Assembly (NCBI RefSeq): GCF_000017505.1
Contig: NC_009675.1
Coordinates: forward strand, 1,612,001-1,676,000
Source: Anaeromyxobacter sp. Fw109-5
Lineage (GTDB): Bacteria; Myxococcota; Myxococcia; Myxococcales; Anaeromyxobacteraceae
Reading direction: 5' to 3'
Length of the DNA: 64,000 nt
Shown piece by piece: positions 6,741-25,404 of this stretch (the first letter of the stretch is position 1; each line of letters starts with the position of its first letter). Under the pieces are notes generated by a model, which did not search any database, was not told the origin of the DNA, and was given only the letters and a program-made list of their open reading frames with translations. Both the position numbers and the translations under genes were made by a program.

Positions 6741-6906
6741 ACGAGCGGGCAGAGCAGGTCCGAGGAAGTTGCGCGCACGTCTCCGCCCATGCCGGCGTTC
6801 ACTAATAGTCCCCGCTATCTCCAGCGATAGCTCTTGCGAGCCACGCGAGTCCCAGTTGCGGTGGGTGAATGTTGCCCTCTTGACGAGGTTCGAGGCGAAA
6901 CGTGCT
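6741..6906 (+). repeat. Right arm of the long inverted repeat, part of the HNH leader
   Basis: This stretch is the inverted partner of 6299-6442 and lies within the conserved leader of the HNH gene. It includes AGCAGGTCCGAGGAAG, the hairpin GCTATC-TCCAGC-GATAGC and CTTGACGAGGTTCGAGGCGA. In cassette B the same leader occurs only once and is not mirrored. Confidence 0.7.
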
Positions 6907-7085
6907 TCGACGTCCGCGGCACGTCGAGAGCACGCTCCTCGCGAGCGCAGGCAGGTCGCACCGTGCGCGTCCGGCGCACCGCGTGGACGGCGAAGGGGCG
7001 GGCCCGGAACGCAGCGCAGGCGCGAGCCTGGTGCGTTCCAGGAGAGCCGCAAATCGCGTGTTACGAAGTGCACAGGAGGTGCACC

Positions 7086-8252
7086 ATGCCCGCGATCGCC
7101 CCTTCCGCCCTCGACTCGACCCTGCTCGCCCAGCGCCTGCGCGAGCTCGCCGGCCAGGAGCGCGACGTCCAGGTCGAGTTCCTCCTCCACCTCGAGGTGT
7201 TCGATCGCCGCCGCGCCTACGTGGAGGCCGGCTACCCCTCGCTCTGGGCGTATTGCCTGGAGGTGCTCCACCTGCGCGAGGGCGCGGCCGGGCGACGCAT
7301 CCAGGCGATGCGGGTGCTGCGCCGGTTCCCCAGTCTCGAGGGCGCGCTTCGGGATGGCCGCCTTTGCATCTCCACCGTCCAGCTGCTCGGCCAGGTGCTG
7401 ACCGAGGAGAACCTGCCCGACCTCGTCGCCCGGGCCGCCTACCGCACCAAGGCCGAGGTGGATCACCTCGTCGCCTCGCTCCAGGCGCGCACGGCTCCGC
7501 GGACGGGCCTGCGCAAGCTGCCCGACCGCGCCTCAGCCGCGAGCGCCCCGGCGCTGCCGCTGGCGACAGTCCATGCCGGACCTGCCGAGCCGCAGGAGGC
7601 GATCCCCGCGCCGGCGGCGGCTGGTGGGTCGCTGCCGCCCACGGTCTCCGCGCTGCCCGACGTTCCTCGCCCGAAGGCGCGGGCGGAGACCCGCGCCGTG
7701 AGCGAGAGCGGCTGGTCGCTGCGGGTCACCATCGACCGGGGCTGCAAGGAGGACCTCGAGACGCTCACCGCGCTGCTCTCGCACAAGATCCCGGACGGCG
7801 ATCTCGCGGCGGTGCTCCGCGAGGCCATCCGCTGCGCCATCGAGACGCACGGCAAGCGCAAGGGCGCGATCGCGCCGGAGCGGCAGCGGAAAGCGGACGG
7901 GGACCCACGGCCCTCTGCCGAGCGCGCCGCGCCCACGGGCACGATCCCGGCGATAGTGCGGCGCGAGGTCTGGAAGCGCGACGGCGGACGCTGCGCCTGG
8001 GTCGCTCCGGACGGGCGGCGCTGCAACAGCCGCTGGCAGCTGGAGCTCGACCACATCCACCCGCAGGCCCTGGGCGGACCCTCGACGGTCGAGAACCTCC
8101 GAGTCGCCTGCAAGTCGCACAACCTGTTGCACGCCGAACAGACCTACGGGCGCGAGCACATGGACCGCTTCCGTCGCATGGGCGTCGCCGGGGTGACGCC
8201 AGATGCCAGCGGGGCGCCACCAGCGCCGCAGCAGGCCCTGTGGGGACCGTGA
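7086..8252 (+). CDS. HNH endonuclease (multi-copy family), copy A
   Basis: The 388-residue protein has an alpha-helical N-terminal part (about 1-150, beginning MPAIAPSALDSTLLAQRL), a variable Ala/Pro-rich linker (about 155-205), a middle helical region and a C-terminal HNH nuclease domain. The HNH core is RCAWVAPDGRRC, LELDHIHP and then NLRVACKSHNLLHA, giving the catalytic Asp-His and the Asn/His of the beta-beta-alpha-metal fold plus cysteine pairs likely to bind zinc. The ATG at 7086 has a perfect AGGAGGTGCACC before it; the in-frame extension upstream is not conserved in frame in copy B, supporting this start. The second copy (32355-33530) is nearly identical outside the linker and C-terminal tail. 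DNA cleavage is inferred from the fold; the biological target is unknown. Confidence 0.85.
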   Translation: MPAIAPSALDSTLLAQRLRELAGQERDVQVEFLLHLEVFDRRRAYVEAGYPSLWAYCLEVLHLREGAAGRRIQAMRVLRRFPSLEGALRDGRLCISTVQLLGQVLTEENLPDLVARAAYRTKAEVDHLVASLQARTAPRTGLRKLPDRASAASAPALPLATVHAGPAEPQEAIPAPAAAGGSLPPTVSALPDVPRPKARAETRAVSESGWSLRVTIDRGCKEDLETLTALLSHKIPDGDLAAVLREAIRCAIETHGKRKGAIAPERQRKADGDPRPSAERAAPTGTIPAIVRREVWKRDGGRCAWVAPDGRRCNSRWQLELDHIHPQALGGPSTVENLRVACKSHNLLHAEQTYGREHMDRFRRMGVAGVTPDASGAPPAPQQALWGP

Positions 8253-8653: not shown

Positions 8654-9928
8654 ATGACGACCTCCGCTGGCGAGCTCCTCCTCCTCGTCCCCACCACGAG
8701 CTACCGGCTCGACGACTTCCAGGCCGCCGCACGGCGGCTGGGGGTGCCGCTCCTGGTCGGGAGCGATCTCTGCCACAAGATCGAGGACACCTTCGGGGCG
8801 CAGCCGGACCTCATCCCGCTCGACTACCGCCGGCCGGCGCGCGCGGCGGAGCAGGTCGCCGAGGCGGCGGCGGGGCGTCACATCCGCGGGATCGTTCCGG
8901 CGAGCGACGCGACGGCGGTCATCGCGGCGCTCGCGGCGGAGCGGCTGGGGCTCCCGTACAACCCCCCGGAGGCGGCGCGCCGCGCCGCGAACAAGCACGC
9001 GATGCGCAGCGCGCTGCGGGCCGCCGGGGTGGCGGTGCCGGACTTCGCGCTGCACGACCTCCACTCCGACCCGGAGATCGCGGCGCGGGCGACGCCGTAT
9101 CCGTGCGTCCTGAAGCCGCTCATCTTCTCGGCCAGCCGCGGGGTCATCCGCGCGGACGATCCCGCCGGGTTCGTGGCCGCCTGGCGGCGCATCGCGCGGC
9201 TGCTCTCCGACACGAAGGCAGAGCGGCGGCCGCGCGAGGAGGACGAGTCGCGCGAGGTGCTCGTCGAGTCGTTCGTGCCCGGCGCGGAGGTGGCGCTGGA
9301 GGGGCTCCTCCGCGGCGGCGCGCTGGAGGTGCTGGCGCTCTTCGACAAGCCCGATCCGCTCGACGGCCCGTACTTCGAGGAGACCCTCTACGTCACCCCG
9401 TCGCGCCACCCGGCCACGCTGCAGCGCGAGATCGAGCGCGTGGTCGCCGACGGCGCGCGCGCCCTCGGCCTGCGAGAGGGGCCGCTGCACGCCGAGCTGC
9501 GGCTCTCGCCCGCGGGTCCGGTGGTGCTGGAGATCGCGGCCCGCTCCATCGGCGGGCTCTGCTCGCGGGCGCTGCGCTTCGGCGCGGGGCTCACGCTCGA
9601 GGAGGTGCTGGTGGCGCACGCGATGGGGCTGCCGCTCGAGTCGCTCCACCGCGAGCAGCGCGCGTCGGGCGTCATGATGATCCCGATCCCGCGGCGCGGG
9701 ATCCTCCACGCCGTGCGCGGCGTGGAGGCGGCGCGAGCGGTGCCGGGCGTCGTGGACCTCGTCGTCACCGCCGAGCCGGGTCGCGAGGTGGTGCCGCTGC
9801 CGGAGGGGGAGGCGTACCTGGGCTTCCTGTTCGCGAAGGCCGAGACGCCCGCCGAGGTGGAGGCGGCGCTCCGCGAGGCGCACCGCCGGCTCGAGCTCGA
9901 CATCCGCGCGCCGCTGCCGACCGTCTGA
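8654..9928 (+). CDS. ATP-grasp domain-containing protein
   Basis: The 424-residue protein reads as an ATP-grasp ligase of the carboxylate-amine type. An N-terminal pre-ATP-grasp domain (LLLLVPTTSYRLDDF, then IRGIVPASDATAVIAALAA) leads to NKHAMRSALRAAGVAVPDF, the start of the ATP-binding fold. PCVLKPLIFSASRGV supplies the phosphate-binding lysine, and VLVESFVPGAEVALEGLL the second ATP-binding block. LHAELRLSPAGPVVLEIAAR has the acidic residues expected to bind magnesium. Such enzymes join a carboxylate to an amine with ATP hydrolysis; dipeptide or natural-product ligases of the BL00235/LysX-like groups are closest in style. The substrate is unknown. It converges on the kinase gene with 12 bases between stops. 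Confidence 0.8.
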   Translation: MTTSAGELLLLVPTTSYRLDDFQAAARRLGVPLLVGSDLCHKIEDTFGAQPDLIPLDYRRPARAAEQVAEAAAGRHIRGIVPASDATAVIAALAAERLGLPYNPPEAARRAANKHAMRSALRAAGVAVPDFALHDLHSDPEIAARATPYPCVLKPLIFSASRGVIRADDPAGFVAAWRRIARLLSDTKAERRPREEDESREVLVESFVPGAEVALEGLLRGGALEVLALFDKPDPLDGPYFEETLYVTPSRHPATLQREIERVVADGARALGLREGPLHAELRLSPAGPVVLEIAARSIGGLCSRALRFGAGLTLEEVLVAHAMGLPLESLHREQRASGVMMIPIPRRGILHAVRGVEAARAVPGVVDLVVTAEPGREVVPLPEGEAYLGFLFAKAETPAEVEAALREAHRRLELDIRAPLPTV

Positions 9929-13583: not shown

Positions 13584-14174
13584 CTACCCCACCAGGAACA
13601 CGGTGCACGATCGCGCGCCGTGCGCGCCGATGACGAGCGCCTGCTCGATGTCCGCGGTCTTCGACGGTCCGGCGATGAACAGGCCGTAGCTCCTCGGCAG
13701 CGCGGCGATCCGCGCGTAGGCGGCGTGCATGTCGGTCACGACCTCGCGCGCGGGGAGCACGAGCGCGAGGTGCTGCGTGACGACGAACACGCCGCGATGG
13801 GGGAGCGCGGCCGCGTTCACCCAGATCGCGCCGTTCTCCGCGACCCCGAACTCACCGGGCAGGATCGCGAGATCCAGCCCCTCCAGCTCGTGCGGATCCG
13901 CGAGCTCCTCCGGGCGGACGGTCCCGGGCGCGGCGCCCGGCACGGCGGACGCGATCCGTGTCGCCCCGAGCTGCGCCACGACCGCGGCGACGGCCTCGGG
14001 GAGCGCGGCGACGCCCGCGACCCGCACGGGCACGGCGGCGACCGCCTGGAGCGCGGCCTCGAGCTGGGCGAGCGGGTCCGCGTACGGCACGGTCTCGCTG
14101 CGCGGGTCGGGGAGCGGCGCCGGCGGGGGCGCGGCGGCGCGCAGCCGCTTCAGGATCTCGCTGCGGCTATCCAC
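13584..14174 (-). CDS. lutC: LUD-domain lactate utilization protein LutC
   Basis: This 196-residue protein is a LUD (YkgG/LutC) family member, the small subunit of the LutABC L-lactate oxidation complex. MDSRSEILKRLRAA is the usual N-terminus. The GVAENGAIWV block followed by VVTQHLALVL is the conserved core, and LFIAGPSKTADIEQALVIGAHG is the characteristic C-terminal motif. It overlaps the end of lutB by eight bases, so translation is coupled. In the characterised Bacillus and Shewanella systems LutA, LutB and LutC together oxidise L-lactate to pyruvate. It is the last gene of the minus-strand lactate cluster. Confidence 0.92.
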   Translation of the reverse strand: MDSRSEILKRLRAAAPPPAPLPDPRSETVPYADPLAQLEAALQAVAAVPVRVAGVAALPEAVAAVVAQLGATRIASAVPGAAPGTVRPEELADPHELEGLDLAILPGEFGVAENGAIWVNAAALPHRGVFVVTQHLALVLPAREVVTDMHAAYARIAALPRSYGLFIAGPSKTADIEQALVIGAHGARSCTVFLVG

Positions 14175-15543
14175 GGCGCTCGCTCCTGTGCTGCCGGTAG
14201 AGGTCGCGGAAGCTCTCCCGCGGCAAGGGCGGCAGCTCCCGCTGACGGCCCCACACGTTCCAGCGGCCGTACAGGATCCGGCGGGGCAGCGCGCGGCCGA
14301 GGAGCTTCCCCAGGCGGCTGGCGAGCAGGTACAGGAAGCCGGAGCGCAGCACCATCCCCGCGAGCCTCATGCCGAGCCGCTTCCCGGAGGAGAGGAGCCC
14401 GGCGCGGGCGGCGTCGCGGCGTCGCGCGAGGAGCTGGTCGTGGAGCGGGATGCGGACCGGGCAGACGTCGTCGCACGAGCCGCATAGGCTCGACGCGAAC
14501 GGGAGCGAGGCGTGCGCGCGCGGGTCGACGGAGGGCGCGAGGACGGAGCCGATGGGGCCGGGGATGGTGTACGCGTAGCTGTAGCCGCCGCTGCGCCTGA
14601 AGACGGGGCAGGTGTTCATGCAGGCGCCGCACCGGATGCAGTGCAGCGCGCGCCGGAAGGTCTCGTCCGCGAGCAGCCGGCTCCGGCCGTTGTCCACCAC
14701 GACGATGTGCAGCTCGCCCCCGCGGAGCGGGCCCAGGAAGTGGGTGGTGTACGTGGTCGTCGGCTGGCCGGTGGCGCTGCGCGCCAGCAGCCGCAGGAAG
14801 ACCGCCAGATCCGCGAGGCGCGGGACGAGCTTCTCCACCCCCATGCACGCGATGTGGATGGGCGGCAGCGAGGTGCCCATGTCCGCGTTGCCCTCGTTCG
14901 TGCAGACGACGACGTGGCCGGTCTCGGCGACCGCGAAGTTCACGCCGGTGAGCCCGGCCTGCGCGCGCATGAACCGCTCGCGCAGGTGACCCCGGGCGGC
15001 CTCGGTGAGGACCTTCGGGTCGGAGAGCCCCGCCGCCGTCCCGAGCTTGTGGTGGAACAGCTCGCCGATCTCCTCCTTCTTGCGGTGGATGGCGGGGAGC
15101 ACGATGTGCGAGGGGGGCTCGTGCGCGAGCTGGACGATTCGCTCGCCGAGATCCGTGTCCACGACCTCGATGCCCCGCGCCTCGAGGTACGGGTTGAGGT
15201 GGCACTCCTCGGTGAGCATCGACTTCGACTTCACGAGGCGCGTCGCGCCGCGATCCGCGAGGATGCGGTGGACGATGGCGTTGTGCTCCTCCGCGTCGCG
15301 CGCCCAGTGGACCCGGGCGCCCGCGGCGGTGGCGTTCCGCTCGAACTCCTCGAGGTAGTCGGCGAGGCGCGACTGGGTGTGCGCCTTGATGGCGGAGGCG
15401 AGCCCGCGCAGCCGCTCCCAGTCCGGGACCGCCGAGGCCGCCTTGTCGCGCTTCGCCCGCACCCACCAGAGCGCCTGGTCGTGCCAGTGCGCCCTCGCGT
15501 CGTCCGCCGCGAACCGCGCCGCTCGCTCCGCGTGGCCGATCAT
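14167..15543 (-). CDS. lutB: Iron-sulfur lactate utilization protein LutB
   Basis: This 458-residue protein has the LutB (YkgF) layout. An N-terminal LUD domain, with NATAAGARVHWARDAEEHN and VKSKSMLTEECHLN, precedes two ferredoxin-type motifs CIRCGACMNTCPVF and CGSCDDVCPVRIPL for two [4Fe-4S] clusters, and a C-terminal DUF3390-like tail. In the LutABC complex it is the electron-transfer and probable catalytic scaffold subunit for L-lactate oxidation. Both cluster motifs are complete. It starts 25 bases after the lutA stop and overlaps lutC at its end. Confidence 0.93.
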   Translation of the reverse strand: MIGHAERAARFAADDARAHWHDQALWWVRAKRDKAASAVPDWERLRGLASAIKAHTQSRLADYLEEFERNATAAGARVHWARDAEEHNAIVHRILADRGATRLVKSKSMLTEECHLNPYLEARGIEVVDTDLGERIVQLAHEPPSHIVLPAIHRKKEEIGELFHHKLGTAAGLSDPKVLTEAARGHLRERFMRAQAGLTGVNFAVAETGHVVVCTNEGNADMGTSLPPIHIACMGVEKLVPRLADLAVFLRLLARSATGQPTTTYTTHFLGPLRGGELHIVVVDNGRSRLLADETFRRALHCIRCGACMNTCPVFRRSGGYSYAYTIPGPIGSVLAPSVDPRAHASLPFASSLCGSCDDVCPVRIPLHDQLLARRRDAARAGLLSSGKRLGMRLAGMVLRSGFLYLLASRLGKLLGRALPRRILYGRWNVWGRQRELPPLPRESFRDLYRQHRSERRG

Positions 15544-15568
15544 CTGCGCCTCCCGCCGGGGTGCCGGA

Positions 15569-16312
15569 TCATGCCATGGCCTCCGCGAGGATCTCCGCCA
15601 CGTGGCGGAACCGGACCCGCTCGCCGGCGCGGCGGGCGAGGCCGTCCATGTGCATGAGGCAGGAGACGTCCGTGCCGGTGACCACCTCGGCGCCCGCCTT
15701 CACGTGGTCGGCGATCCGGTCGCGCCCCATCATGCAGGAGACCGCCTCCTCCGCCACCGCGAAGGTGCCGCCGAACCCGCAGCACTCGTCCGGCCGCGCC
15801 AGCGGGACGAGCTCGATCCCCTCGAGCGACGAGAGCAGGCTCGCGACCTTGCTGTAGCGCGGCACGAGCAGCTCGCTCGCGCTGCCGAGCCGGAGCTCGC
15901 GCAGCCCGTGGCAGCTCTGGTGGAGCCCCACCTTGAGCGGGTAGCGCCCCGGGATGCGGGCGACCTTCAGGACGTCGGTGATGAACTCGCAGAGCTCGAA
16001 CGTGCCCTGCTTCAGCGCCTCGAAGCCGGGCGCTCCGGCGAGGTACGGGTCGTAGTGGTTCCGCACCATCGAGGTGCAGCTCCCCGACGGGCAGACCACG
16101 TGCTCGAAGCGCCCGAACACCTCGAGGAACTTCCGGGCGAGCGGCGCCGCGTCGTCGGCGAACCCGGCGTTGGCCATGGGCTGGCCGCAGCAGGTCTGCT
16201 CCTCCGGGTAGACGATCTCGACGCCGAGCTTCTCGAGCACGCGCACGGTGGCCATGCCCACGTGCGGGTAGAGCTGGTCCACGTAGCACGGGATGAACAG
16301 CGCGACCTTCAT
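15569..16312 (-). CDS. lutA: Cysteine-rich (CCG-domain) lactate utilization protein LutA
   Basis: This 247-residue protein consists of two CCG (cysteine-rich) domains. The first ends with YPEEQTCCGQPMANAGF and the second with RPDECCGFGGTFAV. CPSGSCTSMVRNHY and GLHQSCHGLREL complete the four cysteine clusters, giving CX(n)CCGX(m)CXXC patterns like those that bind iron-sulfur clusters in heterodisulfide reductase. It is the LutA (YkgE) subunit of the L-lactate oxidising complex. MKVALFIPCYVDQLYPHVG is the standard family N-terminus. Confidence 0.93.
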   Translation of the reverse strand: MKVALFIPCYVDQLYPHVGMATVRVLEKLGVEIVYPEEQTCCGQPMANAGFADDAAPLARKFLEVFGRFEHVVCPSGSCTSMVRNHYDPYLAGAPGFEALKQGTFELCEFITDVLKVARIPGRYPLKVGLHQSCHGLRELRLGSASELLVPRYSKVASLLSSLEGIELVPLARPDECCGFGGTFAVAEEAVSCMMGRDRIADHVKAGAEVVTGTDVSCLMHMDGLARRAGERVRFRHVAEILAEAMA

Positions 16313-16337
16313 CGGGCCACCTCGCGGAGGCGGCGCC

Positions 16338-16360
16338 GCCGGCCCGGAGAGCGGGCCGGC
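16338..16360 (-). other. Intercistronic hairpin between lldP and lutA
   Basis: A perfect nine-base stem GCCGGCCCG/CGGGCCGGC with loop GAGAG lies between the lldP stop and the lutA start. No T-tract follows on the minus strand, so it is more likely an mRNA-stability or partial-attenuation structure than a full terminator. It could set the ratio of permease to LutABC. Confidence 0.5.
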
Positions 16361-16372
16361 GCGCCGCGCCGT

Positions 16373-18043
<1,671 letters not shown>

Positions 18044-18054
18044 ACGAGCGGCTC

Positions 18055-20958
18055 CTACTGGGTGGGGTCGGCGATGCGCACCGCGGCGTGCGCGACTTCG
18101 GGTGGGGACGCGCGCACCGGCCGCGGCGACGCGCAGCGGTCCACGAGGACCGCGAGGGAGCGGTAGGGGATCCCGGAGTGCAGCGAGAGCCCGATCTCGC
18201 AGGTGCGCGAGGCGGAGAAGCCCTCGCGGCAGTCGGCCGGCAGCGCGGCGGCGAGCGGGGCGAGGGCCGCCGCGTTCAGCTCCGGGTGCGTGAACCCCCG
18301 GTCCCCCGCGAAGCCGCAACAGCCGACGCCGCTCGGGACGACGACGCGCTCGGCGCACGCGACGGCGACGCGCCGGTAGGTCTCCGCGAGCCCCGTCTTG
18401 GTCGCGCTGCAGGTCACGTGGAGTGCGATGGGCCCGGGCGCGCGCACGATCTCCAGCCGCGGGAGCAGGAAGCGGTCGATGAACTCGACCGGATCGAGGA
18501 TGCGCAGCTTCCCCTGGGTCACGCTCTTCATGCGGTAGGTGCAGGGGCTCGTGTCGAAGACCACGGGGAGCGCCCCGTCGTCGCTCGCCGCGAGGAGCGC
18601 CTCCTCGAGCTGGCGCGCCTTCTCCTCCGCCTGGACGGGGAAGCCCTTCGACTCGAAGGGCATCCCGCAGCACAGGTCGGCCATGCCGTCCGGGAAGACC
18701 ACGTCGCAGCGCGCCTTCGCGAAGAGCGACAGGAGCGCGGCGTACACCGGCGGCGCCTCGTCGCCGCGCGCGGGCCCCATCGTGCGGGCGATGCAGCTCG
18801 GGAAGTACACCGCCCGGAGATCCGCGCCGGTGGAGGTGCCGGTGAGGCGCGGCTTCACGGCGCGCGGCATGGCCGGGTTCCAGAGCGGCAGCCTCCCTCC
18901 GGTCGCCGCGCGCACGCCGCGCGCGACGGCGCCCATGGCGCCGGCACCCAGCACCGCGTGGGCCGCGTCGGCGGCCCGCAGGGCCGCCCGCGCCACCGAG
19001 CCCACCACGGCGAAGTGCTCGGCGGCGGAGGCCGCGATCCCCGGGTCGTCTCCGCGCCGCTGGGCGCGCAGCCACTTCGTGTGCGCGCCGGTGTCGATGC
19101 CGACCGGGCACGCGGTGGCGCACAGGCCGTCCGTCGCGCAGGTCTGGTCGCCCATGTACTCGTAGTCGGCCTCCAGGCGCTGGAGCAGGTCGGGATCCTC
19201 CGCGGTGACGCGCAGCCGCGCCAGCTCGCGCTGGACGACGATCCGCTGCCGCGGGGTGGTGGTGAGGTCGCGCGACGGGCAGCGCGGCTCGCAGAAGCCG
19301 CACTCGATGCAGCGGTCGATGATCGGGTGCGCCCGGGGGAGCGGCTTCAGCGCCTGGAGGTGGGCGCGCGGGTCGCCGTTGATGATCACCCCGGGGTTGA
19401 GCAGCGTGTGCGGGTCGAGCAGCGACTTGATGCGGCGCATGAGGCCGTACGCCTTCTCGCCCCACTCGAGCTCGACGAACGGCGCCATGTTCCGGCCGGT
19501 GCCGTGCTCGGCCTTGAGCGAGCCGTCGTACTTGCGCGCCACCATCTGGCAGACGTCGTCCATGAAGCGTGCGTAGCGCGTCACCTCCTGGACGTCCCCG
19601 AACTCCGGGGTGAAGACGAAGTGGAGGTTCCCGTCGAGCGCGTGGCCGAAGATGATCGCGTCGGAGTAGCCGTGCGCGGTCAGGAGCCGGCGCAGGTCGA
19701 CCGTGCCCTCCGCCATGCGGGCGATCGGGAACGCCACGTCCTCGATGACCACCGTGGAGCCGATCGGGCGCGCCGCCCCCACGGCGGGGAAGAGGCCGCG
19801 GCGGATGTCCCACAGCCGCTCGTACTCCGCCTTCACCGGCGTGAAGGCGACCGGGGAGAGGGTGGGGACCGGCGCCAGGCGCGCGAGGCACTCGGCGATC
19901 TGCGCGTGGAGCGCGGCCGGATCGGGGGCGCGCGTCTCGATGAGGAGCGCCGCCGCGTCCTCCACGAGGCCGCGCAGCTCGGCGGGCATGCCGGGCTTCC
20001 CCTCGACCGCGCGGAGCGAGGCGCGATCCATGAGCTCCACCGCCGACACCGGGCCGCCGGCCAGGAGCTGCGTCGCCCGCGCGGCCTCGCCGATGTCCGG
20101 GAAGAACGCCAGCGCGCTCGCCTTGTGCGGCTGCTCGACCACGGTGCGGTAGGTGATCTCGGCGATGAAGGCGAGGGTGCCCTCCGAGCCGACGAGGAGG
20201 TGCAGCAGGATGTCGACGGGGTCGTCGAAGTCCACGAACGCGTTGAGCGAGTAGCCCGTCGTGTTCTTGATGCGGAACTTCTCGGCGATCCGGGCGCGCA
20301 GCGCGGGGTCCGCGCGGAGCTCGTCGCGGACGGCGGCGAGCCCGCGGAGGAGCTCGGGGTGGCTCCCGGCGAGGCGCGCGCGCGAGGCCGCGTCGGCGGT
20401 GTCGACGAAGGTCCCGTCCCAGAGGACGAGCTTCATGCTCTCCACGGTCCGGTACGTGTTCTGCGCGGTGCCGCAGCACATCCCGGACGAGTTGTTCGCG
20501 GCGATGCCGCCCACCATGCACGAGCCGATGGAGGCGGGGTCGGGCCCGAGCTTGCGCCCGAAGGGCGCGAGGGCGAGGTTCACGTCGGCGCCGATCACGC
20601 CCGGCTCGCAGGCCACCCGCTCCCCGCCGTCGAGCACGGTGAGCCCGCGGAACCCTCCCGCCACCAGCACGAGCACGGAGTCGGAGATGGCCTGGCCGGA
20701 GAGGCTCGTGCCGGCGGCGCGGAACGTGACGGGCAGCCCGAGCGCGGCGGCCTCGCGCAGCACCCTCGCCACCTCGTCGGCCGAGCGCGCCTGCACGACC
20801 AGCTTCGGGATCAGCCGGTAGAAGCTCGCGTCGGTGCCGAAGGCGAGCCGGCGCAGGGGATCGGCGATGATCCGATCCCCGGGGAGGTGAGGGGCGAGCG
20901 CGTCGTGCAGGCGCCGGTACGGCTCGGGCAGCGCGCGAAGGTCCTTCCGCTTGGGCAT
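18055..20958 (-). CDS. FAD-binding and (Fe-S)-binding oxidoreductase, probable D-lactate dehydrogenase (GlcD-GlcF type fusion)
   Basis: The 967-residue protein fuses a flavin subunit to an iron-sulfur subunit. The N-terminal half is a FAD_binding_4 domain (VTFRAAGTSLSGQAISDSVL, GVIGADVNLALAPFGRKLGP, MVGGIAANNSSGM) with an FAD-oxidase C-terminal domain (GHALDGNLHFVFTPEFG). Then follow two [4Fe-4S] motifs, CIECGFCEPRCPSRDL and CATDGLCATACPVGI, and two CCG domains (DLCCGMPFESKGF and GVGCCGFAGDRGF). This is the layout of respiratory FAD/Fe-S D-lactate dehydrogenases; glycolate or 2-hydroxyglutarate oxidation is an alternative. It heads the minus-strand lactate cluster, so D-lactate is the best guess. 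Electrons probably go to the quinone pool. Confidence 0.88.
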   Translation of the reverse strand: MPKRKDLRALPEPYRRLHDALAPHLPGDRIIADPLRRLAFGTDASFYRLIPKLVVQARSADEVARVLREAAALGLPVTFRAAGTSLSGQAISDSVLVLVAGGFRGLTVLDGGERVACEPGVIGADVNLALAPFGRKLGPDPASIGSCMVGGIAANNSSGMCCGTAQNTYRTVESMKLVLWDGTFVDTADAASRARLAGSHPELLRGLAAVRDELRADPALRARIAEKFRIKNTTGYSLNAFVDFDDPVDILLHLLVGSEGTLAFIAEITYRTVVEQPHKASALAFFPDIGEAARATQLLAGGPVSAVELMDRASLRAVEGKPGMPAELRGLVEDAAALLIETRAPDPAALHAQIAECLARLAPVPTLSPVAFTPVKAEYERLWDIRRGLFPAVGAARPIGSTVVIEDVAFPIARMAEGTVDLRRLLTAHGYSDAIIFGHALDGNLHFVFTPEFGDVQEVTRYARFMDDVCQMVARKYDGSLKAEHGTGRNMAPFVELEWGEKAYGLMRRIKSLLDPHTLLNPGVIINGDPRAHLQALKPLPRAHPIIDRCIECGFCEPRCPSRDLTTTPRQRIVVQRELARLRVTAEDPDLLQRLEADYEYMGDQTCATDGLCATACPVGIDTGAHTKWLRAQRRGDDPGIAASAAEHFAVVGSVARAALRAADAAHAVLGAGAMGAVARGVRAATGGRLPLWNPAMPRAVKPRLTGTSTGADLRAVYFPSCIARTMGPARGDEAPPVYAALLSLFAKARCDVVFPDGMADLCCGMPFESKGFPVQAEEKARQLEEALLAASDDGALPVVFDTSPCTYRMKSVTQGKLRILDPVEFIDRFLLPRLEIVRAPGPIALHVTCSATKTGLAETYRRVAVACAERVVVPSGVGCCGFAGDRGFTHPELNAAALAPLAAALPADCREGFSASRTCEIGLSLHSGIPYRSLAVLVDRCASPRPVRASPPEVAHAAVRIADPTQ

Positions 20959-20989
20959 GGCCGCCGAACTCCAGCAAATCCGGAGGGGT

Positions 20990-21035
20990 CCGCACGGGGG
21001 AACTGCGCGACCGGCGTCCCCCGCCTCCCGTGCGG
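20990..21035. promoter_or_regulatory. Inverted repeat upstream of the lactate cluster
   Basis: CCGCACGGG (20990-20998) and CCCGTGCGG (21027-21035) form a perfect nine-base inverted repeat with 28 bases between arms, 30 to 80 bases upstream of the dehydrogenase start. In DNA it could be a regulator site, in RNA a leader hairpin. The arms do not resemble known LytTR direct-repeat sites, so the cognate protein is unknown. Confidence 0.35.
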
Positions 21036-21189
21036 TCGCAGGGGAGGGGTGAGCGGTGGACGGGCGGACGAATGACGCTCTGCGTGATCGGGTGGCGCCT
21101 CGGCCGGAGACGAGCGGATCGGGGAACGCCGCTCGCGGTGAGCATGTCGAACCGCGGGCGAGCCCGATCGACTCGAGCGGGCACGGCCA

Positions 21190-21900
21190 TCACAGCCCCA
21201 GCCGCTCCCTGAGCGCCGCGAGGAACCTCCGGCTCACCGGCACGAGATGCCCGGCGCGGGTGCGGACGGTGGCGGCGGGATCCTCGCCGGGCCGGATCTC
21301 GTCGATGCGCTCGAGGTTCACGAGGTGCTGCTTGTGGCAGCGCACGAGGCCGCCGCGCTCCTCCAGCACGCGCAGCGTGAGGTCGGTGAGGAACTCGCCC
21401 GCGGCGGTCACGACGTACACGCCCGCCGCGCTCGAGCGGACGTGATCCACCTCGGCGAGCGGGACGAGCTTGATCGCCTTGCCCGCCAGGCATGGGACGC
21501 GCGTGAGCGGGGGCGCGGGGACGGTCGGGCGCGGCGCCGGGGAGGTGCGGCGGGCGAGCTTCTCGACCGTCTTCGCGAGCCGCTCGCGCGTGACGGGCTT
21601 CAGGAGGTAGTCCGCCGCGCTCTCCTCGAACGCCCGCAGCGCGAAGGCGTCGTGCGCGGTCACGAACACGACCGCCGGCAAGACGTCCTCGTCGAGCATG
21701 GCGAGGAGCTCGAACCCGTTCACGACCGGCATCTGCACGTCCAGGAACAGGACGTCCGGCCGCTCGCGCTGGACGGCGTTCAGGGCCTCCACGGCGTTCG
21801 GGCACTCGCCCGCGATCTCGACGGCCCCGGTCTGCTCGAGCAGCGCGCGCAGCTCCGCGCGCGCGCCGGGCTCGTCGTCCACGATGAGCGCTCGCATCAT
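21190..21900 (-). CDS. LytTR-family DNA-binding response regulator
   Basis: This 236-residue protein has a receiver domain (about 1-120: ALIVDDEPGARAEL, phospho-acceptor Asp in VLFLDVQMPVVNGFELL, conserved Thr/Lys in VFVTAHDAF and YLLKPV) and a C-terminal LytTR DNA-binding domain (about 140-236: IKLVPLAEVDHVRSSAAGVY, FLTDLTLRVLEERGGLVRCH, NLERIDEIRP, VPVSRRFLAALRERL). Its ATG overlaps the histidine kinase stop (ATGA), so the pair is translationally coupled. It lies just upstream of the lactate cluster on the same strand. LytTR regulators often control carboxylate or pyruvate transport genes, so control of lldP-lut is a reasonable inference. Confidence 0.92.
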   Translation of the reverse strand: MMRALIVDDEPGARAELRALLEQTGAVEIAGECPNAVEALNAVQRERPDVLFLDVQMPVVNGFELLAMLDEDVLPAVVFVTAHDAFALRAFEESAADYLLKPVTRERLAKTVEKLARRTSPAPRPTVPAPPLTRVPCLAGKAIKLVPLAEVDHVRSSAAGVYVVTAAGEFLTDLTLRVLEERGGLVRCHKQHLVNLERIDEIRPGEDPAATVRTRAGHLVPVSRRFLAALRERLGL

Positions 21901-23576
21901 GCCGCGCGCGCCTCCAGCGGGACGCGCACCGTCACCCGCGTCAGCTCGGCCGGCACGCACGAGACGCTCACCCCGAAGGCGCCGCCCATGAGGCTCTTGA
22001 TGCGCCGGTCGACGAGGGTCATCCCGAGCCCGTCGCCGGCGAGCGGAGCGCGCCAGGTCCCGGCGTTGTCCTCGACGTCGATGAGGGCGACGTCTCCCTC
22101 GCGCCGGGCGCGAATGCGGGCCACCCCGCGGTCGAGGGTGGCGGCGAGCCCGTGCTTCACGGCGTTCTCGATGAGCGGCTGCAGCGTGAAGGTGGGCAGC
22201 TCGACCGCCAGGAGCTCCGGGTCCACGTCGATCTCGACGACGAGCCGGTCCGGGAAGCGGGCCCGCTCGATCTCGAGGTAGGAGCGCACGTGATCGAGCT
22301 CCTCCTCGAGGGTGGAGAGCTCGGCAGAGCGCTTCAGGTTCTTGCGGAAGAAGTTGGAGAGGTGCACGAGCAGCGCGCGCGCCTGCTCCGGCGCCGTGCG
22401 GGTCGCGGCGATGATGGTGTTCAGCGCGTTGAACAGGAAGTGCGGGTTCACCTGCGCCTGGACGAGCTTCAGCTCGGCGCGGACGAGCAGGTTCTTCTGG
22501 CTCTCGTAGCGCGCGCGCAGGAGCTGCTCGGAGAGGAGGTGGGCGAGCCCCTCTCCGAGGGAGCGGTTCATGCTGCGGAACCGCTTCGCGCGCGGCTCGA
22601 AGAGCTGGACCGTCCCGATGATCTGGCCGTCCACCTCGAGCGGCACCACGAGCGCCGAGGCGATCGGGCAGGTCGGCGAGAGGGGGCAGCGGTAGCGCTC
22701 GCGGCGCCCGTCGGCGAACACCACCTCGCGTCCCTCGATGGCGCGGCGCGTGAGCGGGGAGGCGATCGGGGCGCCCGGGCGGTGGTGATCGAACCCTGCC
22801 CCGACGAAGGAGAGGATCGTGTCGCCGTCGGTGATCGCGACGGCGCCGACCCCGGTCTCCTCCTGGATGATGGTCGCGAGCTCCACCGCGACCTCGCGGT
22901 TGAAGCCCTTGGCGAGCGGCTCGAGCGTGCGCTCCGCGACCCGGAGCGCCTTCGCGGAGGTCATCGCCCCGACCTTGTCGTAGAGGTTCGCGCGATCCCG
23001 CAGCACCGTCATGAACAGCGCGGCGCCGGCGGCGTTCGCGAGGATCATGGGCCCCGCGATGATCCGGATGAGGGCGATCACGTCCGCGGTCGGCCGCGAG
23101 ACGAGGAGCAGCATCCCCATGTGGCCGACCTCGCCGAGCGCGGTGAGCGCGCCGGCGAGCCTCCAGCTGATGATCCGCTCGGGCGTCCCGCGCCGCGTGA
23201 AGTAGAGGTGCACGAGCCCCGCGATCAGCCCCTCGAGCGAGGTCGAGATGGCGCCGGACATCGCCGTGATTCCGCCCAGCGAGATGCGGTGCAGGCCGGC
23301 GGTCACGCCCACGGCCCCGCCCAGCGCCGGTCCGCCGAGGAGGCCCGCGAGCACGGCGCCCATCGCGCGCGTGTTCGCGACCGCGCCGCCCTCCAGGCGC
23401 AGGCCGAGGTAGGTGCCGAGGATCGAGATCCCCGAGAAGAACAGGTAGAGCGAGAGCCTCGCGCGGGGGCGCAGCCAGTCGGTGCGCTGCGGCCGGAACG
23501 CGGGCGAGCGGCTGTACAGGTGGAACAGCACGAAGAAGACGGACATCGCCTGGAGGAGCGAGAGGAGGAGTCGCAT
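21897..23576 (-). CDS. LytS-type sensor histidine kinase (5TM-LYT, GAF, HisKA-like)
   Basis: This 559-residue protein has an N-terminal membrane region of five to six helices of the 5TMR-LYT type (MRLLLSLLQAMSVFFVLFHL, ANTRAMGAVLAGLLGGPALG, LGGITAMSGAISTSLEGLIA), a GAF-like domain (about 215-345), then the His_kinase motif VQAQVNPHFLFNALNTI with the phospho-accepting histidine and an HATPase_c domain (LQPLIENAVKHGL, DNAGTWR, GLGMTLVDRRI). It is the LytS/YehU/BtsS type that pairs with LytTR regulators; characterised members sense pyruvate or membrane state. The start at 23576 is chosen because the membrane domain begins there and GAGGAGGAG precedes it. The ligand here may be lactate or pyruvate. 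Confidence 0.92.
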   Translation of the reverse strand: MRLLLSLLQAMSVFFVLFHLYSRSPAFRPQRTDWLRPRARLSLYLFFSGISILGTYLGLRLEGGAVANTRAMGAVLAGLLGGPALGGAVGVTAGLHRISLGGITAMSGAISTSLEGLIAGLVHLYFTRRGTPERIISWRLAGALTALGEVGHMGMLLLVSRPTADVIALIRIIAGPMILANAAGAALFMTVLRDRANLYDKVGAMTSAKALRVAERTLEPLAKGFNREVAVELATIIQEETGVGAVAITDGDTILSFVGAGFDHHRPGAPIASPLTRRAIEGREVVFADGRRERYRCPLSPTCPIASALVVPLEVDGQIIGTVQLFEPRAKRFRSMNRSLGEGLAHLLSEQLLRARYESQKNLLVRAELKLVQAQVNPHFLFNALNTIIAATRTAPEQARALLVHLSNFFRKNLKRSAELSTLEEELDHVRSYLEIERARFPDRLVVEIDVDPELLAVELPTFTLQPLIENAVKHGLAATLDRGVARIRARREGDVALIDVEDNAGTWRAPLAGDGLGMTLVDRRIKSLMGGAFGVSVSCVPAELTRVTVRVPLEARAA

Positions 23577-23670
23577 GGCGAGGCCGGTTCGGGGTGCCGG
23601 GGGGCGACGATAGCCAGGGCGGCGCTCCGAGCGCAAATGCGGCCGTCGGCGGTCCGCCGCGGTGCGTCGG

Positions 23671-25083
23671 TCACTCGAGCGGAGCCAACTGCCCCGCGGT
23701 GGGCTCCGATCAGCAGAACCAGGACTCGGTGAGGCGCGGGACGCGCCGGCGGTCCGGAGAGAGCACGCGGACGTGGCCGTCGGGGAGCCCCGCCGCCGCG
23801 AGCGCGAGCGACCGCACGCGCGCGATCGTGGCGAGCGCTGGCTCGCCCGCCCCGACGCCGGCCTCGACCGCCGCCGCGACCCGCGTCTGCAGCGCGTCCA
23901 TCCGCGGATCGGGGTGGCGCCACCGCCAGGTGAGCGCGGCGGGGTCGAGCCCGTCGAACGGGATCGTCGGATCGCCCTCGAGCAGCGACCCGGGCGGCAC
24001 GAGCAGCCGGATCGTGAGCTGGACGGGGTCGAGGTTCTCGAGCCAGGCGCGCGCCTCGAGCAGCTCGAGGAGCTCGAGGTAGTCGTCGAGCGTCGCCCAG
24101 GGGGTGAACGGCAGGAGCGAGGGGCGCAGGGGCACGCCGGCCGCGTCGGCGAGATCGAACGCGGCGAGCGCGTCGGCGCGGGTGTGACCCTTCGCGAGCC
24201 TGGCGAGCACCTCGTCGGAGAGCGACTCCACGGCGGAGGTGACGAAGAGCGCGCCGAGGCCGGCGAGCTCGCCGAGCGCGTCCCCCGCGCGGAGGAGGTG
24301 CTCGACCTTCGCGGTGAAGTCGAACGTGAGGGCCGGGAACCGGGCGTGCATCGCGCGCGCGACGCGGAGGGCGTGCTCCGGGCCGTTCAGGAAGTCGGGG
24401 TCGCCGAAGGTGACGTGCTCGACGCCGCGCGCCACCTGCTGGGCGACGTCCTCCACGACGGCGTCGACGGGAACCGCGAAGAACCGCCCGTCGTAGACGG
24501 CCGGGAGCGGACAGTGCCGGCAGCGGTGCTTGCAGCCGCGGCTCGCCTCCGCGTAGCCGGCGAGCCGGAGCGAGCCGTCCGCGGCGGCGAGCCGGGCGTA
24601 GCGCTCGGCCGGCGGGAGCCCCTCGCGGCTCGGGATGGGGTAGTCGAGCCGGCGCCGGAGGGCGGCGGCGCCGCCGCGCTGGACGAACCGCGCGAGCGGC
24701 TCCCCCCGCTCGACCGCGCGGGCGAGCGAGACGAGCTCCTCGTCGGACTCGCCGCCGAGCACCGCGGCGGCGCCGGCGGCGAGGAGGAGGTCGGCGTGGA
24801 GGGGCGCGTACACGCCGTGGAAGCAGAGGACGGCCTCCGGCGCGAGGGTCCGGATCCGCGCCGCGGCCTGCAGGCCGAGCCGGAGGGCGGTGTGCATCGG
24901 GACCGACAGGGCGACGAGCCGTGCGCGCCGCACGCGGCTCGGGTCGAGCGGCTCGACTGCCAGATCGAGCGCCGCGGGGGAGAACCCGGCGCGCTCCAGG
25001 AACGCCTTCGGGAGCGCCACGCCGTGGGGCGCGTGCCCGAGCTCGTAGGTGGAGACGAGGAGGATGTCGCCGGGGGATCGCAC
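23671..25083 (-). CDS. B12-binding-type radical SAM protein, probable selenoprotein with in-frame TGA (CUAEP/CCAEP-tail-like)
   Basis: The conventional frame ends at TGA 23710-23712 after 457 residues. It has a cobalamin-binding-like N-terminal domain (ILLVSTYELGHAPHGVALP, VALSVPMHTALRLGLQAAAR, AVLGGESDEELVSL) and a radical SAM core with EASRGCKHRCRHCPLP, the CX3CX2C cluster motif. The last residues are ESWFC, then TGA, then TCG GAG CCC (Ser-Glu-Pro) and nine more codons to a second stop at 23671-23673. C-TGA-SEP closely resembles the C-terminal C-U-A-E-P / C-C-A-E-P motif known from a radical SAM (seleno)protein family. A SECIS-like hairpin directly follows the TGA. Reading TGA as selenocysteine gives 470 residues. 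The reaction is unknown. Radical SAM assignment is certain; selenocysteine is a strong inference. Confidence 0.8.
23680..23712 (-). promoter_or_regulatory. SECIS-like hairpin next to the in-frame TGA of the radical SAM gene
   Basis: On the minus strand TGA (23712-23710) is followed after one base by CGGAGCC (23708-23702), a 15-base loop (23701-23687) and GGCTCCG (23686-23680), a perfect seven-base-pair stem. The loop can form an inner CC/GG pair leaving a G-containing tip. Bacterial SECIS elements are stem-loops immediately 3' of the UGA, so placement and size fit, though the distance from UGA to loop is at the short end. Confidence 0.6.
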
Positions 25084-25125: not shown

Positions 25126-25404
25126 CTAGCCCTTGGAGCGGGGGGGGCGGTAGTCGGGCGGGAGCTGCGCGCCCTCGCTGAAGAAGAACTGCTCCGCCTG
25201 CTGGTACAGGATCTCCTGCGAGCGCGGATCGGCGGGAGAGAGCCGGTACTCGTTCATGATCATCTTGAAGTGCTCGAGCCAGAGCTTCCAGGCGTCCTGC
25301 GAGACCGAGTCGTAGATCCGCTGCCCGAGCTCGTTCGGGAACGGCTTGAAGGTGAGCCCCGGCAGCTCCTTGCCGAGCTTCTTGCACATCACCATGCGAG
25401 CCAT
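25126..25404 (-). CDS. yggX: Probable Fe(2+)-trafficking protein (YggX family oxidative damage protection protein)
   Basis: This 92-residue protein matches Ygg[21 protein letters not shown] carries the conserved cysteine (Cys7) and G.ELG region, followed by [20 protein letters not shown] and [20 protein letters not shown]. YggX proteins protect iron-sulfur proteins from oxidative damage and help iron trafficking. The ATG at 25404 is preceded by GGGAG. The downstream neighbour, 42 bases away on the same strand, is a radical SAM iron-sulfur enzyme, which fits an iron-sulfur theme. Confidence 0.9.

Follow-up and report, generated by a model that had tools for sequence, protein, structure and literature searches.

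Where does the protein encoded by a radical SAM gene of Anaeromyxobacter sp. Fw109-5 end? The gene lies on the minus strand of a 64,000-nucleotide stretch of contig NC_009675.1 (positions 1,612,001 to 1,676,000; hereafter the window), and its open reading frame at 23710–25083 closes with LTESWFC followed by TGA. The codons 3′ of this TGA are TCG GAG CCC ACC GCG GGG CAG TTG GCT CCG CTC GAG TGA. The read-through product of this frame therefore carries C-U-S-E-P plus nine residues, for a C terminus of WFC-U-SEPTAGQLAPLE. An initial annotation of this DNA had proposed that the gene encodes a hidden selenoprotein, and its description of the reading frame holds in full: a TGA directly after Phe-Cys, read-through into CUSEP, 12 residues beyond the putative selenocysteine (Sec), and 470 residues in total. 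The parts of the gene are as follows.

23671–25083, minus strand: predicted CUAEP-tail radical SAM selenoprotein gene, with a GTG start, 457 codons, the Sec codon, 12 further codons, and a terminal TGA (470 residues).

24511–24534, minus strand: radical SAM cluster motif C184-x3-C188-x2-C191, from the alignment and a Pfam match (Radical_SAM, PF04055, E = 1.9e-15).

23710–23712, minus strand: in-frame TGA, the predicted Sec codon (U458) right after Cys457, recognized by codon conservation in 78 sequences.

23671–23673, minus strand: terminal TGA, 12 codons past the Sec codon.

The last of these was also considered as another Sec codon and rejected. The sequence that follows 23673–23671 is not conserved among close relatives, and this TGA is therefore taken to be the true stop.

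The initial annotation had likened the tail to that of the CUAEP/CCAEP radical SAM family, and this assignment proved correct as the family is curated. In a profile search against the NCBIfam model NF040546, named “CUAEP/CCAEP-tail radical SAM (seleno)protein,” the window protein scores 629.7 bits up to the TGA and 648 bits once read-through is included. Since the curated cut-off is 500 bits, membership is settled. The match spans residues 7–467 of the protein and positions 1–467 of the 468 in the model. Besides the score, the window protein has the CxxxCxxC motif of the family (C184, C188, and C191) and the C-U-S-E-P version of its C-[U/C]-A-E-P tail. Serine stands here at the position where the family usually has alanine; an SEP tail also occurs at two other loci (L044 and L078), both of which are Cys forms.

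A scan of genome contigs recovered 80 NF040546 loci spread over many phyla. The C-terminal tail could be read by pattern in 78 sequences, comprising 77 of the 80 loci and the window's own sequence. The codon after the conserved cysteine is TGA in 65 of them, TGC in eight, and TGT in five, with no other codon present, and the next residues are [A/S]-Glu-Pro in all 78. As for the other three loci, the tail of L078 was read separately as CCSEP, and the contigs of L023 and L073 end too close to the gene for a tail to be visible. In an alignment of 55 sequences, Glu453, Trp455, Cys457, residue 458 (Sec or Cys), Glu460, and Pro461 are invariant, whereas Ala459 is nearly so, with Ser as the variant. 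Among the cluster cysteines of the same alignment, C184 and C188 are invariant and C191 is present in at least 90% of sequences.

An independent set of 60 relatives gave a similar picture. The NF040546 cut-off is exceeded in 28 of these genomes, and exactly one in-frame TGA is found in 27 of them, including the window's genome. When the latter is excluded, the tally is 26 of 27 relatives, the exception being one genome (G093) with none. The initial annotation had allowed that a TGA followed by a family-like tail might be a coincidence in a single sequence. Conservation in 78 sequences, the gain of 18 bits in family score upon read-through, and the 26 of 27 independent relatives place the combination beyond chance. 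The comparison of orthologous tails that had been proposed as a check thus returned TGA or TGC/TGT at the site with AEP or SEP thereafter in every case (78 of 78). None of the observations that had been named as counting against the proposal, namely other stop codons, unrelated sequence after the cysteine, or absence of selABCD from the genome, was made.

Decoding of UGA as Sec depends on dedicated machinery, and the search for selA, selB, selC, and selD suggested by the initial annotation found all four. In the window's genome, selA scores 545 bits, selB 325 bits, tRNA-Sec 75.4 bits, and selD 397 bits, each over its cut-off. ARAGORN detects no tRNA in the window itself; the tRNA-Sec gene sits elsewhere in the genome. 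The selD gene (G000:C1:4028582-4029508, L099) has an in-frame TGA of its own, and for this reason the selenophosphate synthetase SelD of this organism is probably a selenoprotein as well.

The presence of this machinery was compared with the codon form of the gene in the 50 genomes behind the loci. A selA gene over the cut-off is found in 31 of 36 TGA genomes versus 1 of 14 Cys genomes (Fisher p = 3e-7). Strong tRNA-Sec matches were counted only at ∼70 bits because the model gives matches in all 14 control genomes, and scores below ∼50 bits are mostly ordinary tRNAs. Of the five TGA genomes that lack selA, four have tRNA-Sec by this measure; so do three Cys genomes, all of which are Nitrospirae metagenome-assembled genomes (MAGs). 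Either selA or tRNA-Sec is therefore found in 35 of 36 TGA genomes versus 3 of 14 Cys genomes, a tally that is slightly uneven because the tRNA-Sec search was limited to the Cys genomes and to those TGA genomes that were in doubt. The remaining 11 of 14 Cys genomes have neither selA nor a strong tRNA-Sec, which means that cysteine is used where the machinery is missing.

The three Nitrospirae MAGs (L030, L036, and L037) form a case of their own. They retain tRNA-Sec, and one of them also has a full selA, yet they carry cysteine in the CUAEP-family protein. This is a replacement of Sec by Cys without loss of the machinery.

Bacterial Sec insertion further involves a SECIS hairpin downstream from the UGA. 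The initial annotation had named one candidate stem, and comparison of orthologues points to a different one that overlaps its 3′ arm.

23679–23697, minus strand: bacterial SECIS hairpin GCGGGGC-AGTTG-GCTCCGC, with 7 bp and a 5-nt loop, beginning 12 nt after the TGA; covariation.

23680–23708, minus strand: stem CGGAGCC/GGCTCCG of the initial annotation, with arms at 23708–23702 and 23686–23680 and a 15-base spacer; structure not conserved.

Nearly all TGA orthologues can form a 7-bp stem located 12 bases past the TGA with an AGTT-type loop, a placement that resembles the mini-hairpin of Escherichia coli fdhF. In 64 TGA sequences, 6.56 of the 7 positions are paired on average, compared to 5.17 in random synonymous recodings. 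In contrast, the same position in 13 Cys orthologues gives 4.00 paired positions versus 4.15 in recodings, and the SECIS is absent from these Cys forms. With this codon-preserving control, single sequences are weak individually (median p 0.07), and the strength of the result lies in the whole set and in the contrast with the Cys forms.

Covariation was measured in 30 TGA sequences that are in register, a set that was picked, once the first analysis had been done, because its members share a five-base loop. The stem at 23697–23679 is paired in 94.8% of cells, and it shows 37 double changes versus 10.1 in shuffles. Its covariation score is 0.57 versus 0.22 for shuffled alignments, a value reached by 0 of 500 shuffles, and the pairing is destroyed when the partner is slid by one to three columns. 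Because these sequences were chosen for their loop, the result leans somewhat toward structure; the comparison of 64 sequences is free of that bias. The hairpin is retained although the protein sequence after AEP varies by group (QLAL, QFGPL, QLDPL), an argument that the constraint acts on the RNA and not on the protein alone. The hairpin is shifted or interrupted in some close relatives (L005 and L006).

The stem CGGAGCC/GGCTCCG fares differently in 30 orthologues, where pairing is 60.5% versus 59.8% in shuffles, with no covariation. It is ruled out as the SECIS on these grounds. Its 5′ arm begins one base past the UGA and would be covered by the decoding ribosome, which also counts against such a role. 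In the window's sequence the two structures compete. Bare-stem energies are −13.2 kcal/mol for the SECIS and −11.3 kcal/mol for the other stem, and the minimum-energy fold of an isolated 54-nt segment holds the latter. The initial annotation was therefore right that a repeat with a 15-base spacer is present and that a SECIS exists, but the stem it named is not conserved, and the true element is the one at 23697–23679. Folding of orthologous 3′ regions, which it had recommended, is what yields this common covarying stem. An Rfam scan of the window returned no SECIS or other RNA family above the gathering score.

The gene surroundings of the family were compared as well. Two genes in the window are relevant.

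25126–25404, minus strand: YggX-type Fe(2+) trafficking protein (PF04362, E = 2.6e-36), starting at the ATG of MARMVMC and located just upstream of the CUAEP gene with a 42-base gap.

8654–9928, plus strand: ATP-grasp protein, amino-acid-ligase-like, with 57% identity to a Rokubacteria CUAEP neighbor (E = 7.4e-134), ∼14 kb from the CUAEP gene.

Iron–sulfur and iron-handling genes recur beside the family. At 52 of the 80 loci, a same-strand gene no more than 1 kb away encodes an Nfu/NifU-domain protein, an A-type Fe-S carrier, or YggX (Nfu at 26, YggX at 13, A-type at nine, and Nfu with A-type at four). At an Ignavibacteriales locus (L020), the CUAEP gene stands between an A-type carrier and Nfu inside a SUF operon, whose upstream portion includes two SufB/D-type genes with a SufC-type ATPase gene between them, plus a SufS-type gene. 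At 31 of 80 loci, there is an ATP-grasp gene within 4 kb whose product has a C-terminal domain of the L-amino-acid-ligase type; 29 of these loci also have an iron or Fe-S gene. The ATP-grasp gene at 8654–9928 is an orthologue of the gene that neighbors CUAEP genes in other phyla, and it is the sole match to the Rokubacteria neighbor in the window's genome. Genes for DUF169 proteins occur at 14 CUAEP loci and take the place of an Fe-S or iron gene at 12 of them, leaving 16 of 80 loci with no adjacent gene of either kind.

The DUF169 (COG2043) genes are found at L012, L014, L022, L025, L027, L028, L030, L031, L034, L035, L036, L053, L074, and L079, mostly in MAGs labeled Planctomycetes or Nitrospirae and often where Nfu, A-type, and YggX genes are missing. 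DUF169 is a candidate for a functional stand-in for these proteins.

Downstream from the CUAEP gene of the window are genes for a LytS-type histidine kinase and a LytTR regulator, followed by lactate oxidation and lactate permease genes. These form a lactate utilization block at 14167–23579 on the same (minus) strand, which encodes a LutB/LldF-type Fe-S protein, an LdhH-like protein, a GlcD/D-lactate-type dehydrogenase, and an LctP permease in addition to the two regulatory proteins. Elsewhere in the window, the product of 6861–8252 (plus strand) weakly matches IscB/Cas9d-type endonucleases at its C terminus (E about 3e-5, far short of the cut-off) and probably contains just an HNH-like domain. 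A search for phage carriage of the CUAEP gene gave no match.

The AlphaFold model of the protein has a mean pLDDT of 92.9, falling to 67–75 per block at residues 431–467. The solved structures closest to it are AprD4 (Z 27.2, 404 residues, 3.7 Å), MgmA (Z 25.2, 355 residues, 3.3 Å), OxsB, TsrM (Z 24.6, 396 residues, 3.3 Å), and MiaB (Z 23.1, 369 residues, 3.5 Å). AprD4, MgmA, TsrM, and MiaB share with the model an overall fold composed of a Rossmann-type N-terminal domain and a radical SAM core, at 15%–19% identity. To our knowledge, none of these four enzymes has a Cys-Sec tail, and a predicted fold held in common with them does not show function.

Sequence comparison identifies a closer relative. 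The second-best family for the window protein is ArsL (NF040542) at 265 bits, with all others below 39 bits. This score is lower than the curated ArsL cut-off of 450 bits, and the tail is WFC-U-SEPTAGQLAPLE rather than RCCLKC. When 55 CUAEP proteins were aligned with seven ArsL/RCCLKC proteins, 46 positions, including the cluster cysteines, were found to be conserved in both sets, and the CC of RCCLKC aligns with Cys457-Sec458, although across a gap of more than 40 columns. In the predicted ArsL reaction, SAM donates a 3-amino-3-carboxypropyl group to As(III) (PMC8552651). ArsL is the nearest relative of the CUAEP protein and resembles it in having vicinal cysteines near the C terminus and an ATP-grasp gene nearby in most of the loci that were read.

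That gene is present in six of seven ArsL/RCCLKC plasmid loci (L105, L107, L108, L109, L110, and L111, from Priestia, Alicyclobacillus, Pantoea, and Klebsiella), which also hold arsM, arsN1, arsR, or aquaporin genes; a Pseudomonas arsQ-arsL-arsM locus is without it. The ATP-grasp proteins of the two settings are distant from each other (25% identity over 240 residues). Their occurrence in ArsL/RCCLKC clusters hints at a peptide derivative, and the literature search returned no paper linking ATP-grasp with arsinothricin. Apart from its RCCLKC tail in place of WFC-U-AEP, ArsL differs in its surroundings, since the arsenic gene cluster is missing around CUAEP loci: the 80 loci include no arsN1, arsQ, aquaporin, or arsR gene, and arsM is represented by one weak match (L006).

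Could the TGA nevertheless be an ordinary stop? The protein would then end at Phe-Cys, and the resemblance downstream would be left over from an ancestor with a longer tail, as sequence that has decayed or is not translated. TGA is indeed a common stop in the window, and a public record for Thermomicrobium roseum is annotated in this manner. Although the gene carries the family name there (CUAEP/CCAEP-tail radical SAM protein), its translation ends at LTESWFC, and the next codons are TGA GCG GAG CCG. However, AEP or SEP is kept after the TGA in 65 sequences across many phyla, which practically refutes this explanation. Moreover, the TGA is replaced exactly by a cysteine codon in the Cys forms, the Sec machinery tracks the TGA form, and a covarying SECIS follows TGA forms only. 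We consider termination at this codon to be extremely improbable. From these comparative data, it is nearly certain that the UGA at 23712–23710 is decoded as Sec in the living cell. The T. roseum record instead demonstrates that truncation by annotation does occur, as had been anticipated in the initial annotation, at least in this public entry.

Several roles can be envisioned for the Cys-Sec pair of such a selenoprotein. One is that of a redox relay. The C-terminal arm would be mobile, and its selenylsulfide would reduce a bound product, the cluster, or an auxiliary cluster; mammalian thioredoxin reductase has a comparable arm with the sequence Gly-Cys-Sec-Gly. The lower model confidence at residues 431–467 is as expected of a mobile arm, and most selenoproteins are thought to be redox active (PMC13188914). 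No recurring reductase partner gene was seen, however, and the CC pair is common to ArsL, whose substrate is a thiophilic metalloid; a relay therefore seems rather unlikely. We judge a function in Fe-S biogenesis to be unlikely to a similar degree. In such a role the enzyme might, for example, modify or repair Nfu, A-type, or YggX proteins or the clusters that they carry, Cys-Sec being a ligand of iron or of a cluster. The same-strand partners at 52 of 80 loci and the SUF setting of L020 speak for it, but 12 loci have DUF169 instead and 16 have no such gene, the Fe-S genes may just serve the enzyme's own cluster, and an amino-acid-ligase partner better fits small-molecule synthesis. That the protein is a true ArsL, making arsinothricin with arsenite as the acceptor, is improbable. 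The 265-bit match, the shared conserved sites, and the common type of ATP-grasp partner would be consistent with this identity, whereas the shortfall from the cut-off, the different tail, and the lack of arsenic genes (save for the single weak arsM-like match) are not.

The reading that we prefer is a selenoprotein that would act as an ArsL-like transferase. The ribosome almost certainly reads the UGA at 23712–23710 as Sec by using SelA, SelB, tRNA-Sec, SelD, and the SECIS at 23697–23679 to produce 470 residues. As a sister of ArsL, the CUAEP protein would cleave SAM by means of its N-terminal B12-type Rossmann domain and radical SAM core. Cys457-Sec458, as the likely counterpart of the CC in RCCLKC, would bind the acceptor, a soft and thiophilic species, within the active site; the group added to it would derive from SAM and would most likely be 3-amino-3-carboxypropyl. 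The amino acid formed in this way would serve, in many genomes, as substrate for the partner ATP-grasp ligase, and the neighboring Nfu, A-type, or YggX proteins would supply or protect the Fe-S cluster of the enzyme.

Not all parts of this scheme are equally secure. Cys-Sec is probably more than a redox arm and acts in the active site. A reaction like the aminocarboxypropyl transfer of ArsL is somewhat less likely than not. We regard as tentative the suggestion that Cys-Sec binds a soft element as the acceptor, and we place the use of the enzyme's product by the ATP-grasp ligase at the same level. Taken as a whole, a selenium-dependent branch of ArsL-like chemistry in which Cys-Sec presents a metalloid or metal for formation of a carbon bond and the product amino acid is ligated by ATP-grasp must be considered doubtful.

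Other selenoproteins provide some context. HgcA, SaoL, SaoC, and MbdU have adjacent Cys-Sec residues, and several of them are linked to mercury, organometals, or metal binding (PMC13188914). They share the CU motif with the CUAEP protein but belong to other families, and none is an NF040546 radical SAM protein. Their links to metals fit, without proving, a mechanism with a soft acceptor. TIGR04167 and TrsS (NF045646) are radical SAM selenoproteins listed in the same 2026 inventory (PMC13188914), and these differ from the CUAEP protein in family and in Sec motif.

The family and its likely selenoprotein status are already on record with the NCBIfam curators (NF040546). The model offers a name only, and none of the papers searched describes the SECIS or the gene partners reported above. 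NF040546 is absent from the 2026 inventory table of 119 prokaryotic selenoprotein families (PMC13188914), and a full-text search with its name and accession, which did not extend to two Haft papers on selenoprotein neighborhoods, gave nothing relevant. New here are the correct SECIS, the correlation with the Sec machinery, the Fe-S and ligase genes as recurrent partners, and the comparison with ArsL.

These findings have a practical consequence in that gene callers can cut the CUAEP protein at its likely functional residue. In addition, what was a family name becomes, through the SECIS, the partners, and the relationship to ArsL, a concrete question about the role of a vicinal Cys-Sec pair in a radical SAM enzyme. 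If the proposed mechanism is true, then many soil, groundwater, and marine bacteria would make an undescribed natural product or metal-handling metabolite.
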